The notes below the pieces were generated by a model. It saw only the letters and a list, made by a program, of their open reading frames with translations. It did no database searches and was not told where the DNA came from. Below are positions 19,833-26,403 of a DNA stretch of 64,000 nt, in pieces. How positions within the stretch are numbered: the stretch's first letter is position 1; every line of letters starts with the position of its first letter. This DNA is from Methanosarcinaceae archaeon. GTDB lineage: Archaea > Halobacteriota > Methanosarcinia > Methanosarcinales > Methanosarcinaceae. The position numbers were made by a program, and so were the translations under genes. Location: contig JAIPUR010000005.1 in the NCBI GenBank assembly GCA_020055655.1, forward strand, positions 1 to 64,000, written 5' to 3'.

Positions 19833-20198
19833 TCATTCTCCATCAAAGGCTATATTCTGGATATTTTCAAGTAATATATCCGAGAATACCAATTTTTCAA
19901 TGGTTCTAGCAACATATTTCCTATTTTGGTGCTTTTGGATGTCTTCGTTTGTCCTGAGATCAGAATCGACCTGTATCCTTACAAGTGCGAATCGAAATGA
20001 ATCTTCATCTGCTATCTGCAGATTAAAGAATGCTTCCAGATAATAAGGAAGCTTGTATGGCTGATCTATAACTTCACAAAGATAAAGTATTTCTTCCGGA
20101 ATCTCAGAAAGTGAATCCTGAACATCCATGCTTCCTGTAAGCAGTTTTAGCGTATCAACTGAATAGTTTCTGCCATTGATGATCACAAACCGATCCAT
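19833..20198 (-). CDS. Hypothetical protein downstream of cobY
   Basis: 121 residues, ATG start. I do not recognise it. It is acidic, soluble and helix-rich, beginning MDRFVIINGRNYSVDTLKLL, with no cysteine pair or membrane segment. It lies 15 bases behind cobY on the same strand, so it may be the last gene of the cobalamin operon. No function is proposed. Confidence 0.6.
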   Translation of the reverse strand: MDRFVIINGRNYSVDTLKLLTGSMDVQDSLSEIPEEILYLCEVIDQPYKLPYYLEAFFNLQIADEDSFRFALVRIQVDSDLRTNEDIQKHQNRKYVARTIEKLVFSDILLENIQNIAFDGE

Positions 20199-20213: not shown

Positions 20214-20855
20214 TCAATGTTTTTGTTGAAGAGCAGTCTTTTCAGCAAGTATCTCAGTTAGTATCTCTTTACACTTTTTCAGTTCAGATACTGTATTGAT
20301 ATTAAGTGCCAGCTCCTTACGATCAAGGATCAAGCTTTCATAATCCTGCTCATTATCAACATCTTTTCCATCTAATATATTTATTCCAGCAGGAACTATC
20401 AACCTGCCAGCCCAGTTGAAAACTGTATCAGGACGAATTCCAAGGCCTTTGCAAACAGTTATTGGCGAGAATACCGACATTGCCGGTTTTTGGCATTTAT
20501 CATATTCACTGATTATATCTTCAATAATCTCTGGATTTAAAAGAGGAATATCCGCCATTAGTATAAGTACAGGATCATCGATCCCGGCACTTTTTACAGC
20601 GTGTATCATATCCCCCACATAATTCCCACCACCAGTCTGAATAACTTTGACCCGGCCTTCGTAGAGCGATTCTACAAAGTCACCGGTACTGGGAGTTGCC
20701 GGAGAAACAGCAACATAGATACTTCCTATAATCTCAGTATCTTCGAGAGCTTCAATTACATACGATATTAAGGGCTTTCCAAGGAGCTCAACCCTGGGTT
20801 TTTCACCCATACCAAGTCTGCTTCCAAAACCACCTGCCATTATTATAGCGTCCAA
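20214..20855 (-). CDS. cobY: Adenosylcobinamide-phosphate guanylyltransferase, archaeal CobY
   Basis: 213 residues with a nucleotidyltransferase fold: MDAIIMAGGFGSRLGMGEKP is the GTP-binding loop and LMADIPLL the metal-binding strand. CobY activates adenosylcobinamide phosphate to the GDP form and replaces the bifunctional bacterial CobU in archaea; it has no kinase domain. It overlaps the end of cobS by 13 bases. The last 10 residues (EKTALQQKH) are variable. Confidence 0.9.
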   Translation of the reverse strand: MDAIIMAGGFGSRLGMGEKPRVELLGKPLISYVIEALEDTEIIGSIYVAVSPATPSTGDFVESLYEGRVKVIQTGGGNYVGDMIHAVKSAGIDDPVLILMADIPLLNPEIIEDIISEYDKCQKPAMSVFSPITVCKGLGIRPDTVFNWAGRLIVPAGINILDGKDVDNEQDYESLILDRKELALNINTVSELKKCKEILTEILAEKTALQQKH

Positions 20856-21673
20856 GGAAGACCTCCAAGGTCATACTTTAAAGCAAGAGTTATCACGATC
20901 AAAGAAATTATTCTGCCGATCTCATTAGAAGATCCTATTACATCACCATTGACTCCACCAAAGTGCCTTTTACTCACGTTCATCAAAATAAAAGTTGCAA
21001 TAATGGAAGCAAGGAAAGCAAAGATACCCACCAGAGCCATATCCAGATAATAGAAAGCAAGTGCACAGGGCACTATACCCAATACAAAACCAGCGAGATA
21101 CTTAGGTAGTGTAGTATTTTCCACAAGTATTGAACCCAGACCTTCATGAATAGATTTACCGAAGGCTGCAACGGTAAGCATTGACTGTTTTGCAGATATT
21201 TCCGCCACAAACATTGACAGGAGAACAATAAGTGCTATGCTTACCCCTGTATCTGCAGATGTGGCACTAGCCTCATCAAGGAGAGATAGCAAAGAAGAAT
21301 ACAGTGAAAGAATAATAAGGGATGCAAATGCAACTCCACCGATTCCAAGTGACATATCCTTGAGTGCCTTGACCTTCTTCTCAAGTGAACCATGAGCGGT
21401 CATACCATCCCCTATATCTGCAATTCCATCAAGATGGTTCAAGCCTGTAAGGTAGTATATGAAAACTATAGTAAGAACAGCAGTTAACTGGAAAGACAGT
21501 GCTGATGCCAGAACATAGGATACTAGCCCTATCATCAGACCAATCACAATTCCTACCAACATATGCAAATATGTCCTTTTGAAAAACTCATCCAGCCCCT
21601 CCATTGTGATTCCCACAGGAATCGTTGAAAGGAAACCAAAACTTGAGCGAACTGCTAATAAAAATGCATTCAT
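20843..21673 (-). CDS. cobS: Adenosylcobinamide-GDP ribazoletransferase (cobalamin synthase)
   Basis: 276 residues, polytopic membrane protein. It carries the CobS signature FYLTGLNHLDGIADIGDG-like segment (here YYLTGLNHLDGIADIGDG), with acidic residues for metal binding. CobS joins the lower ligand to adenosylcobinamide-GDP. The ATG at 21673 gives the conserved opening MNAFLLAVRSSFGFLSTIPV; an upstream in-frame start would add 34 residues that overlap the end of cobZ. It is followed with overlap by cobY. Confidence 0.92.
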   Translation of the reverse strand: MNAFLLAVRSSFGFLSTIPVGITMEGLDEFFKRTYLHMLVGIVIGLMIGLVSYVLASALSFQLTAVLTIVFIYYLTGLNHLDGIADIGDGMTAHGSLEKKVKALKDMSLGIGGVAFASLIILSLYSSLLSLLDEASATSADTGVSIALIVLLSMFVAEISAKQSMLTVAAFGKSIHEGLGSILVENTTLPKYLAGFVLGIVPCALAFYYLDMALVGIFAFLASIIATFILMNVSKRHFGGVNGDVIGSSNEIGRIISLIVITLALKYDLGGLPWTL

Positions 21674-21698
21674 CTGGATATCACACCACCTTGATTGT

Positions 21699-22259
21699 TT
21701 AATTTTCAGATTTGCCTGAAGATGAGCGGGCTGCTTCAGCCATGGCCCTTGTGTACATATTTGCAGAAACTCCACCTATGAGTCCGCCAATAACATCATC
21801 CATGAAAGGTCCCAGAGTGGAAAGTAAACCTGGCTTTTTCTTGTCAAAACGGACAAACTCGAACATTCCTTTATCACCACTTATGTATTTTGAAATGCTC
21901 ATCCCGATAACCTCATCAGCGATCAGGAATGTAAGATCCCTTTCATAAGAACTTTTACTTATATTTGGAAGAGTACCGGCCTTCCCTTCCCTTTCCAGCA
22001 GTATTCCAGAATAAACAAGCATGCAGAGATTTGGATCAGAAAGTGCTATGTCAAGTTCTTCAAGGAACCTTTCTTGTGCAAGTTCTCTTGTTTCGATACC
22101 AGGGTGAGGCGCATAAAGCTCCATAGCAGAGTCTACAAGCATGTCTATAGTTATCCCCTGATTGTCAAGTATCTCGACAATATCATGCATGATCTCACCT
22201 TCCAGCTCTTCTGCCTGACCTTTTTTACGATTTTCAGATTCAATGTCAGATAGTTTCAT
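21699..22259 (-). CDS. cobZ: Alpha-ribazole phosphate phosphatase CobZ
   Basis: 186 residues. The C-terminal domain resembles phosphatidylglycerophosphatase A (ADEVIGMSISKYISGDKG and FMDDVIGGLIGGV). CobZ of Methanosarcina mazei is known to dephosphorylate alpha-ribazole phosphate, replacing bacterial CobC. The N-terminal half, with DNQGITIDMLVDSAMELY, is the archaeal part. It lies between cbiB and cobS on the same strand; a pentanucleotide repeat array is in its upstream gap. Confidence 0.85.
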   Translation of the reverse strand: MKLSDIESENRKKGQAEELEGEIMHDIVEILDNQGITIDMLVDSAMELYAPHPGIETRELAQERFLEELDIALSDPNLCMLVYSGILLEREGKAGTLPNISKSSYERDLTFLIADEVIGMSISKYISGDKGMFEFVRFDKKKPGLLSTLGPFMDDVIGGLIGGVSANMYTRAMAEAARSSSGKSEN

Positions 22260-22339: not shown

Positions 22340-23335
22340 TCAGATTAATGTTACATTATTAATAGAATAAATAACCACTGAATAGAATACGATAGCTAAA
22401 AAGGAAGCTACCATTATTATCCACGCAGTAAGCTTAATGTCTTCTGACACAGGGAGAGAGTAATCTTTCCCCAGTACATAGGCATTTGGTTTTTCGAGTT
22501 TGACCCCGAGAGCACCAGCAATGGAAGCCATTGGAAATCCGGAGTTTGGAGATGGTGTTTTGAGGCAGTCAGAGAAAGCACAGCTTAATGCCCTTGATGC
22601 ACTCACATTTCTTCCGCTTTTAAAAAATATTTTTACAATCAAAGATGCAGCGGCTATAAAGAATATAGATATTCGGGCAGGTACCCAGTTGAAAAGATCA
22701 TCCATTTTTGCTGAGAACCAACCTATATCAAGGTGTTTCTCATCCTTGTATCCAACCATGGAATCAAGTGTACTGACTGCCTTGAACATATAAGCTGCAA
22801 TAAGACCAAAAGGACCGAATGCGGAATAGAAAAAAAGTGGCGTTAATATTCCATCAACATAATTCTCAGATACTGTCTCAATAATGGATGATGAAACATG
22901 CCCCTCATCAAGTTTTGAAGTATCCCTGCTAACATACATAGATAGGTTTTTTCTGGCATTGTCAATTTTACCGGAATCAAGTTCTTTTCCGACATCAACA
23001 GCGGCTTCGAACAGACAACGTACTGAAAATGTTGATTTAAGGAAATAGGCTGCCACAAGAATACGTATTATTTTAGGTATTGCATCTATACTAAAGAATA
23101 AAAGTACAATATATGCAATAGCCATTGCAAAGAATATAGTAGAGAGACCCAGAACTATTCCATATAACCTTCTGTTCTTTGCAGGTGCTTTTGCCTTAAA
23201 TTTGGAGATCAGATTCCCCATCCATACAACCGGATGGATCGCAAATGGTGGTTCACTCAATAAAAGATCGTAAACATATGCTACAAAAAGAATAGATAGC
23301 AAGTCTGTGAGCCCAAGCTCTACAGGCACTATCAT
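22340..23335 (-). CDS. cbiB: Adenosylcobinamide-phosphate synthase
   Basis: 331 residues with five or more membrane helices. Characteristic parts are DLLLSEPPFAIHPVVWMGNL at the start, YVSRDTSKLDEGHVSSSIIE and ETVSENYVDGILTPLFFY in the middle, and SPNSGFPMASIAGALGVKL near the end. The enzyme attaches aminopropanol phosphate, made by CobD, to adenosylcobyric acid. Its ATG overlaps the stop of the upstream cobD by four bases (ATGA), so the two are translationally coupled, matching their consecutive steps. Confidence 0.93.
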   Translation of the reverse strand: MIVPVELGLTDLLSILFVAYVYDLLLSEPPFAIHPVVWMGNLISKFKAKAPAKNRRLYGIVLGLSTIFFAMAIAYIVLLFFSIDAIPKIIRILVAAYFLKSTFSVRCLFEAAVDVGKELDSGKIDNARKNLSMYVSRDTSKLDEGHVSSSIIETVSENYVDGILTPLFFYSAFGPFGLIAAYMFKAVSTLDSMVGYKDEKHLDIGWFSAKMDDLFNWVPARISIFFIAAASLIVKIFFKSGRNVSASRALSCAFSDCLKTPSPNSGFPMASIAGALGVKLEKPNAYVLGKDYSLPVSEDIKLTAWIIMVASFLAIVFYSVVIYSINNVTLI

Positions 23336-24825
23336 AGGTGTGTCTCCATGACATTTTTCCAGGCTTTTTCAAGACTTTCTTTACCTCTTCCTTCCTTTGT
23401 AAATATGGCAATGAGTCCGTCGACAACTTCCGGTTTGTGGATCACATTACAATAAAGGCAACTCCATACATGACCACCACTGGAACTATCTATCCACTGG
23501 CCACCTGTGCGTTCATCCTCACATGGGTAGAATGGGCAGAAACAGAATGTACAATCCTGATCCTCAAAGTGGCAACAATAGTAATCACATTCAAGATTGC
23601 TTCCCATCCTTCCACACTTTGCTGCATTCTCAAGATTGGTATCAAGATATATCTCTGCCTGTTCTCTGCCCCATTCGTAGATCACCTGCTTAATGGTAGC
23701 TACTACCTTTTCATTTTCAGCCCTTGTTCTGATAGCGATTCTAATAAAATTGTCACCAATTTCTTGGAAAGAATTACAATCGCGTATGAGAACTGCATGT
23801 GATGCCATACGCTCTGAAAGTTCAGTTGAATTCAATGACAGATCAGTGATATCAACAAATATGTAATTAACACTGCTCTCTATTGGTTTAAAACCCCGGC
23901 GAGATAGTTTTTCCATCAGGAAATACCTTTCTGTTTCAATGAACTTGCGGGATTCCACAAGGTAGCGGCTATTGACACCACCATCCATATTCAAAAGAGC
24001 AGTTGCTACTGTGTCAGCTATGCAACCAAGATTCCAGGAAAGTCTCGCGTTGTTGAGAACCTTTGCAAGTGATGAGTTAGCAATTCCGAATCCCATCCTT
24101 ATCCCAGGAATAGCAAAAGACTTTGTCAGTGAGCGCTGTATGAAAAGATATTCGTTACCTTCAACCATATCCGCGGTGCTCTGTGAAGGATCAGCAAGTT
24201 CTATGAAAGCCTCATCAACGAAGAGGATGGTTTTGTGTAGTGCACATTTTTCTGCAAGACCTATGATCTGTTCCCTGCTCAAAAGTCTGCCTGTTGGATT
24301 ATTAGGAGTACACACGAAAAGTATCTTAGCCTCATCAAGAAGCTCATTATCAAGTTCAAAGATGTCTTCCTGAAGCACATATTTTATATTCGCCCCAAGA
24401 ACCTCACACTGAACTTCATACTCACTGAATGTGGGTTGTGGGATGAGCACTGTGTCACCGTCATTAATAGTACATTCTGCAACAAGACGGATTATCTCTG
24501 TGGAACCATTACCTGGTATTATATTATCAGCGGTAACGCCCATTTTAACAAATCTTGCAGCAGCTTCCCTGAAATCATTATAGCGATTATCAGGATATTG
24601 TTCCATTTTTTCCAGACCTTTATTTAAAAGGTCCTGCAGATCCATTCCGGTATAGGCATGATCAAATGGAGTTCCATAAGGATTCAAACTTGCACTTGCA
24701 TCAAGAATCTCATCTTCTGGGATGGAATGTTCCTGAGCATTCTTTTTGATCAATCCACCATGTGATGGAGGATTCAGTTCTAAAAGGTGCTTTTTTACCG
24801 GAAGGGATGGTTTATGCTCTGACAT
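23332..24825 (-). CDS. cobD: L-threonine-O-3-phosphate decarboxylase with C-terminal metal domain
   Basis: 497 residues. Residues 1-370 are a fold-type I PLP enzyme: HGG near 25, CTPNNPTGRLL, LFVDEAFIELAD, and the Schiff-base lysine in RSLTKSFAIPG (K235). The C-terminal 110 residues carry CDYYCCHF, QDCTFCFCPFYPC and WSCLYCNVIH, a cysteine-rich metal domain. The M. mazei enzyme of this layout is reported to have both threonine kinase and threonine-phosphate decarboxylase activity and to contain metal centres. It makes the aminopropanol phosphate used by CbiB. ATG at 24825 is preferred over GTG at 24834. Confidence 0.92.
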   Translation of the reverse strand: MSEHKPSLPVKKHLLELNPPSHGGLIKKNAQEHSIPEDEILDASASLNPYGTPFDHAYTGMDLQDLLNKGLEKMEQYPDNRYNDFREAAARFVKMGVTADNIIPGNGSTEIIRLVAECTINDGDTVLIPQPTFSEYEVQCEVLGANIKYVLQEDIFELDNELLDEAKILFVCTPNNPTGRLLSREQIIGLAEKCALHKTILFVDEAFIELADPSQSTADMVEGNEYLFIQRSLTKSFAIPGIRMGFGIANSSLAKVLNNARLSWNLGCIADTVATALLNMDGGVNSRYLVESRKFIETERYFLMEKLSRRGFKPIESSVNYIFVDITDLSLNSTELSERMASHAVLIRDCNSFQEIGDNFIRIAIRTRAENEKVVATIKQVIYEWGREQAEIYLDTNLENAAKCGRMGSNLECDYYCCHFEDQDCTFCFCPFYPCEDERTGGQWIDSSSGGHVWSCLYCNVIHKPEVVDGLIAIFTKEGRGKESLEKAWKNVMETHL

Positions 24826-24867
24826 GATAATCACAAAACTCTTGTTAATTAGATGTACGAAATATGT

Positions 24868-26403
24868 TCAACTTTTTTTAGAATCGGATATTTTTTCCAG
24901 ATATGGTTCTATTACTCCAACCCATGCTCTATTAATATTTTTATCTGTGTCCCCTTCATGCATCAGCACATCGAGTACAGCTTCAGCATTATGAGCCTGG
25001 TGCAATATGTTACAGAACTCACAGCTCCAAACTTGTCCACCGGTTGCGCTCTCTATCCACATTCCACCTGTTCTTTCATCATCACATGGATAGAAAGGGC
25101 AGAAGCAAAAAGTACAATCCTGACCATGAAAATGACATGGATAGTAATCACAATTATTTCTGCTGGAAGCTTCATCACTTCCACCATGCTCAATTGTCTC
25201 TGCCAGTTTTTCCCGTGCTTCTTCTTTGCTATATTTAGCATAGACTTCATCGATCTTATGGAATAATTTGTCAAATTCATTACGTGGGCGGATAGATAAC
25301 CTAAAATATCCTTTTTCACCATCGAAAAAGTCCTTGCAGTCACGTATCAAAAGACCGTGTTCAGCAAATCCGTCGTAAAGTTTTGACGAATCCATGAAAT
25401 GGCCTTTCATGTCCACAAGAATATAATTTGCATTGCTCTCAACTGGTTCGAACCCGAATAATGAGGAAAGATGAGCCATAGTGTACTCTCTTTCTTCCTG
25501 GATGAATTTCCTTGAATCACGTAAATATTTGCTGTCGACACCACCTTCCATACTCAAAATGGAAGTTGCTATCTGTTCAGTGACAGCACCAATATTCCAG
25601 GAAAGACGCGCTGCATTTAGCACTTCGGATATTGTTAGGGATGTAATTCCATAAGAGAACCTTATACCTGGCATTGAAAATGTGTTTGTGATAGAGCGGA
25701 TCACAAATAAGTAATTATTATTGTTTGTAAGGTCTGTGACTGTCTGAGTTGGATCATCGGATAGATCAATAAAAGACTCATCCACTATTAATAATGTTTG
25801 ACATTTGTCACATTTTGAAATTAAGCTCTGAAGATTATTTTTTGTGAGCAATTTACCTGAAGGATTATTGGGATTGGTCAACAATATTGCTTTTATGTCC
25901 GCGAGATCATCTTCCGATAATGACAAAATATGTTCATCCCTTACTCTGGAAACATTGGCACCAAATGATTCACATATACGTATGTATTCCAGTGGACATG
26001 GAACTGAGACTATTAAATCATCTTCTTCATAAACAACACATTCCATAAGCAGACGGAGTATTTCACATGAACCGTTACCTGGCACTATATTTTCTGGTCC
26101 TGTACCATTCTTTAGAAATGAAGCTGCAGCTGCCTTTAACCCTGTGTAACGATTATCGGGATATTGCTCGAGTCTTGATACTGATTCTTTGAGTATCCTG
26201 TCGATATCAAGGTCGCTTTCGGTAATATCAAAGGGATTTCCAAGTGGATTCAGACTTTTGCTGAAATCAAGAATATCTGATTCGGGTAATTTTGACCCGG
26301 ACAGAATTAGATCCAGCTGTCCACCATGATTACACGGAGATAAATCCTTTAGATGATGTTTGAAAGGACAAGGAGTGTTATCTTCAGTCACAATTATCAG
26401 CAC
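24868..26403 (-). CDS. CobD paralogue lacking the PLP lysine, metal domain intact
   Basis: 511 residues, about the same length and layout as the adjacent cobD and 42 bases upstream of it. The PLP-fold landmarks are kept (LNPLGNPF, LTNPNNPSGKLL, LIVDESFIDLSDD, RLSIRPRNEF) but the Schiff-base lysine is Asn240 in RSITNTFSMPG; the codon AAC at 25684-25686 needs two base changes... at the third position only one change to become Lys. The C-terminal cysteine domain (NCDYYPCHF, CTFCFCPFYPC, WSCEFCNILH) is fully conserved. It cannot be a normal PLP decarboxylase; kinase-only, regulatory or subunit roles are possible. The start (GTG 26403 or GTG 26391) is uncertain. Confidence 0.88.
   Translation of the reverse strand: MLIIVTEDNTPCPFKHHLKDLSPCNHGGQLDLILSGSKLPESDILDFSKSLNPLGNPFDITESDLDIDRILKESVSRLEQYPDNRYTGLKAAAASFLKNGTGPENIVPGNGSCEILRLLMECVVYEEDDLIVSVPCPLEYIRICESFGANVSRVRDEHILSLSEDDLADIKAILLTNPNNPSGKLLTKNNLQSLISKCDKCQTLLIVDESFIDLSDDPTQTVTDLTNNNNYLFVIRSITNTFSMPGIRFSYGITSLTISEVLNAARLSWNIGAVTEQIATSILSMEGGVDSKYLRDSRKFIQEEREYTMAHLSSLFGFEPVESNANYILVDMKGHFMDSSKLYDGFAEHGLLIRDCKDFFDGEKGYFRLSIRPRNEFDKLFHKIDEVYAKYSKEEAREKLAETIEHGGSDEASSRNNCDYYPCHFHGQDCTFCFCPFYPCDDERTGGMWIESATGGQVWSCEFCNILHQAHNAEAVLDVLMHEGDTDKNINRAWVGVIEPYLEKISDSKKS

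Follow-up and report, generated by a model that had tools for sequence, protein, structure and literature searches.

What does a CobD-like protein do when it has lost the lysine that forms the Schiff base with PLP and is encoded directly beside an intact CobD? This question is raised by a tandem gene pair in the window, a stretch of 64,000 nucleotides from a Methanosarcinaceae archaeon. The upstream gene (24868-26403, minus strand, GTG start) codes for a lysine-less CobD paralogue of 511 amino acids. After a spacer of 33 bases it is followed by the gene of a lysine-bearing CobD (23332-24834, minus strand, 500 amino acids), identified by Pfam, NCBIfam and alignment, and the two proteins share 43% identity across 502 amino acids, end to end. 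Both match Pfam Aminotran_1_2 and the Cys-rich, zf-like PF04071. The initial annotation had described two adjacent genes of one layout, an Asn codon facing the partner's Lys codon and a fully retained cysteine pattern, and all three observations were confirmed. Codon 240 of the paralogue is AAC (Asn; 25684-25686, minus strand) and aligns with AAG for Lys238 of CobD (24121-24123). Every conserved Cys and His ligand of the metal domain is present in paralogue and partner and invariant in all aligned copies. In the paralogue the core of this domain, located by Pfam and alignment, spans residues 418-468 (24998-25152, minus strand) and contains eight conserved Cys, His424 and His468.

The pair belongs to a cobamide operon on the minus strand. 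CobD is followed by cbiB (adenosylcobinamide-phosphate synthase; 22340-23335, Pfam CobD_Cbib), a phosphatase gene (21699-22259, Pfam PgpA), cobS (cobalamin-5-phosphate synthase; 20843-21775, Pfam CobS) and a nucleotidyltransferase gene (20214-20855, Pfam NTP_transf_3). From operon context and general knowledge, we take the phosphatase and nucleotidyltransferase genes to be cobZ-like and cobY-like, respectively. At the operon end lies a gene for a 121-amino-acid protein (19833-20198, minus strand), which gave no match in a Pfam search and can be recognised at the corresponding position in other Methanosarcinaceae.

By fold, the paralogue belongs to the CobD/HisC-related aminotransferases (Pfam; Foldseek against 1lc7, TM 0.87 by target). 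Its AlphaFold2 model, with a mean pLDDT of 83.9 and a metal domain of low confidence, matches the structures of HisC and S. enterica CobD. The paralogue also carries PF04071 with all Cys/His ligands, as is typical of M. mazei-type archaeal CobD. In the NCBIfam model of L-Thr-P decarboxylase CobD (TIGR01140) it scored 229 bits, below the curated cut-off of 290.55; the lysine-bearing neighbour, at 289 bits, also stayed just under this value. With Asn240, the paralogue lacks the Schiff-base lysine that marks an L-Thr-P decarboxylase. In the phylum as a whole, PF04071 is found as a fusion partner of CobD or of CbiZ and in small free-standing proteins, one family of which directly adjoins cobD. By association in these fusions, PF04071 is a cobamide-pathway domain. 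The fusion to the adenosylcobinamide amidohydrolase CbiZ was seen at L147, where it was confirmed by Pfam, and at similar loci (L141-L168).

Methanosarcina mazei CobD (MM2060) shares with the paralogue the two-domain layout, the cobamide operon setting and the ligands of the Cys-rich C-terminal domain. The paralogue differs from it in lacking the Schiff-base lysine, the ring-stacking Phe and the DEA motif, and in accompanying an intact CobD as an additional copy. S. enterica CobD (PDB 1lc5/1lc7/1lc8/1lkc) has the N-terminal fold and several substrate- and phosphate-site residues in common with the paralogue, which lacks the lysine and possesses an extra metal domain. S. enterica has a separate kinase, PduX.

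Comparison of 59 lysine-containing and 36 lysine-less relatives revealed that the PLP pocket is altered well beyond the lysine. The PLP-stacking Phe (CobD Phe136), which aligns with the aromatic residue of E. coli HisC and S. enterica CobD at that place, is present in 59/59 lysine-containing and 0/36 lysine-less copies; in the paralogue it is Pro137 (CCA, 25993-25995, minus strand). The DEA motif, with Ala209 invariant in all 59 lysine-containing copies, has become DES in all 36 lysine-less ones (Ser210 in the paralogue). Likewise, Gly248 occurs in 59/59 lysine-containing copies and is replaced by Ala or Ser in 35/36 lysine-less copies (Ser250 in the paralogue). The initial view that all landmarks other than the lysine were kept was therefore too strong, and the change is not one of the lysine alone. 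Several residues have nevertheless been retained. The paralogue still has the pyridine Asp, the Asn of the PNNP motif, the phosphate-site Ser and Arg and the substrate-site His and Arg residues, with roles assigned according to what is known of CobD and HisC. The pyridine Asp and the phosphate Ser/Arg are kept in 27/27 Methanolobus lysine-less copies, and the equivalents of the substrate-site His25, Arg351 and Arg369 in the paralogue and most Methanolobus copies. In other lysine-less genera the substrate-site residues are not uniformly kept, which we count against the reading preferred below.

A cofactor site of this kind might support PMP-dependent or other new B6 chemistry that needs no Schiff-base lysine. 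In the sugar 3-dehydratases ColD, E1 and SpnQ, which also have the aminotransferase fold, the lysine is replaced by His, and E1 and SpnQ additionally contain an Fe-S cluster (PMC8987622). Two observations would fit such chemistry: Methanolobus retains the pyridine Asp and the phosphate-site Ser and Arg in each of its 27 copies, and five Methanomethylovorans-type sequences have His at the lysine site. The dehydratases, however, have an invariant His and an intact cofactor site, neither of which is true of the lysine-less CobD copies: these carry a variety of residues at the lysine site (N, R, D, G, H, T or Y), have lost the ring-stacking aromatic in 36/36 cases and, in genera other than Methanolobus, lack the phosphate-site residues. 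We therefore regard B6 chemistry of this type as very unlikely. A shifted lysine was likewise rejected as a replacement. Most Methanohalophilus operon copies, such as L085:6914-8392, carry a lysine on the residue just preceding the normal position (RSLKD/RSLKY); L076 is an exception, and Methanolobus has none.

The lysine-less gene is widespread among relatives. It is present and intact in 27/27 genomes of the window's own genus, identified through named relatives as Methanolobus, and lacks the lysine in all of them (N24, R1, D1, G1), so that neither a sequencing error nor a strain-specific mutation accounts for its absence. Eight Methanohalophilus-type sequences have D (4), T (2), Y (1) or N (1) at this site. 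The initial annotation had proposed that lysine in all homologues, or a broken and hence decaying gene in sister strains, would refute its idea; the relatives displayed neither, and the idea survived. Among other CobDs sampled across the phylum, including haloarchaeal-looking ones, no loss of the lysine was seen. A third, very degenerate class of lysine-less CobD-like proteins has lost the HGG, YPDN and GNG motifs and kept the Cys-rich domain. It gave strong matches in only 2/112 genomes of the family, at L135:8160-9668 (G063, Methanolobus) and L136:7444-8895, minus strand (G069, Methanomethylovorans). The copy in G063 is flanked by rnhB-like and purQ-like genes and is not part of the cobamide operon.

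Purifying selection acts on the lysine-less gene. Between closely related genomes, compared in pairs, omega was 0.09-0.20 for its N-domain (PLP fold) and 0.03-0.16 for its C-domain (metal), compared with 0.05-0.11 for the N-domain of CobD. An N-domain evolving about twice as fast as that of CobD could be taken as a sign of a decaying duplicate. Yet omega is well below 1, the gene is intact throughout Methanolobus, the pocket changes are recurrent and the metal domain is more conserved than that of CobD: within Methanolobus, mean identities were 0.60 (N) and 0.80 (C) for the lysine-less copy and 0.75 (N) and 0.75 (C) for CobD. Given purifying selection and conservation across Methanolobus, we rejected decay as extremely improbable.

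Phylogenetic analysis pointed to more than one origin of the lysine loss. The Methanolobus and Methanomethylovorans lysine-less copies formed one clade (support 100/99), and those of Methanohalophilus grouped with the second, lysine-bearing copy of Methanococcoides. A single origin, with all lysine-less copies grouped, was rejected by the AU test with all columns (p-AU 0.0103) and after removal of the 59 pocket columns (p-AU 0.0009); the tested group left out the third class (L131, L132), whose branch is too long to place. As long branches are present, the AU evidence that the lysine was probably lost at least twice is good but not absolute. Synteny agrees with independent losses. In Methanolobus the lysine-less gene is the upstream member of the tandem pair; in Methanohalophilus it directly precedes cbiB in the same operon type, with the lysine-bearing copy located about 21-26 kb away where both share one contig. 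Two pocket changes, DEA to DES and Ser355 to Asp, are recurrent, being seen in each of the lysine-less lineages. In Methanococcoides, an extra CobY-like gene lies between the two lysine-bearing CobD copies (L053:8491-9135, L054:8527-9153), in addition to the CobY usually encoded at the end of the operon.

The two copies are constrained in a reciprocal manner. Of the sites conserved to at least 90% in 25 single-copy CobDs, with thresholds and groupings of our own choosing and relatives that are not independent points, the lysine-less Methanolobus copies retained 0.68 in the N-domain and 0.92 in the C-domain, while their CobD partners retained 0.91, 0.79 and, in the tail beyond residue 468, 0.54. 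The ranges of the two groups did not overlap. Methanomethylovorans exhibited the same reciprocal pattern; Methanohalophilus displayed only its N-domain half. General divergence would not readily account for shifts in opposite directions in the two domains. Since the Cys/His ligands are kept in both copies, the CobD partner is relaxed in its C-terminal tail rather than at its metal site. This location of the drift, like the partial pattern in Methanohalophilus, counts against the reading that we prefer.

The lysine-less protein is very probably functional, with a role distinct from ordinary PLP decarboxylation. M. mazei CobD is reportedly a bifunctional L-Thr kinase and L-Thr-P decarboxylase with metallocentres and, to our knowledge, it is the sole archaeal L-Thr kinase reported for cobamides. 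As the reported second activity of a bifunctional CobD, the kinase is the obvious candidate for a retained function. We propose that an ancestral methanogen CobD combined the PLP decarboxylase fold and the Cys-rich metal domain in a single chain, and that duplication was followed by a division of roles. The downstream gene would have retained PLP decarboxylation; the upstream gene would have lost ordinary PLP catalysis and kept a non-decarboxylase role linked to the metal domain. Its product would most likely supply L-Thr-P to the neighbouring CobD, perhaps in a mixed complex, and CobD would convert L-Thr-P to aminopropanol phosphate for CbiB. We give this division, with L-Thr kinase as the most likely retained role, a chance close to but somewhat short of even, and both the kinase activity and the contact between the two proteins are inferred. 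The isolated metal domain of M. mazei CobD is said to have no activity and not to be strictly required for either activity, a further point against this proposal.

A catalytically inactive partner is nearly as likely as a kinase. Such a prozyme-like protein would activate or regulate CobD in a mixed dimer through its fold and metal domain, which would fit tandem genes within one operon. In this fold, Tyr80 of CobD reaches the PLP site of the partner subunit. All 27 Methanolobus and all five Methanomethylovorans lysine-less copies retain its equivalent, although their own lysine and stacking Phe are gone; the Tyr motif is, however, conserved for other reasons as well, and Tyr is replaced by Phe in 3/4 Methanohalophilus copies. 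In trypanosomes, dead paralogues of AdoMetDC and deoxyhypusine synthase stand beside an active enzyme of the same pathway (PMC5201418, PMC3663545). They serve as precedents by analogy only, as the folds are unrelated. We consider a prozyme-like role possible, if tentatively so, the sequence being compatible with either kinase activity or CobD activation as the retained function.

Within the lysine-less protein, constraint is strongest in the metal domain, and the third, more degenerate class keeps the Cys pattern outside the cobamide operon. Both would also suit a sensor, linked to metal, redox state or corrinoids, for which the CobD fold serves as scaffold and which regulates the operon or pathway, with no part in the L-Thr and L-Thr-P steps. 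The position in the nucleotide-loop operon persists in two lineages, though, and we regard a sensor as unlikely. With strict retention of the metal domain and an independent lysine loss in a related genus, the tandem pair appears to reflect a division of labour that has been maintained, rather than decay. The initial suggestion that two activities of one chain have been divided gains support from reciprocal constraint, two independent losses and operon position.

In the literature open to the search, we found no description of a lysine-less CobD. We see in the copy a variant form within an established family, one that yields a testable prediction, and no new kind of system. A dedicated L-Thr kinase with a metal domain and a PLP fold devoid of PLP catalysis may have arisen from at least two independent splits of bifunctional CobD, a conjecture of low confidence; if true, kinase activity would be found in a fold from which it is not otherwise known. 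In Methanolobus, nature has separated the parts, placing a chain incapable of ordinary PLP chemistry beside a chain with an intact PLP site. This natural separation bears on where the kinase activity of CobD resides and on what its metal domain does.
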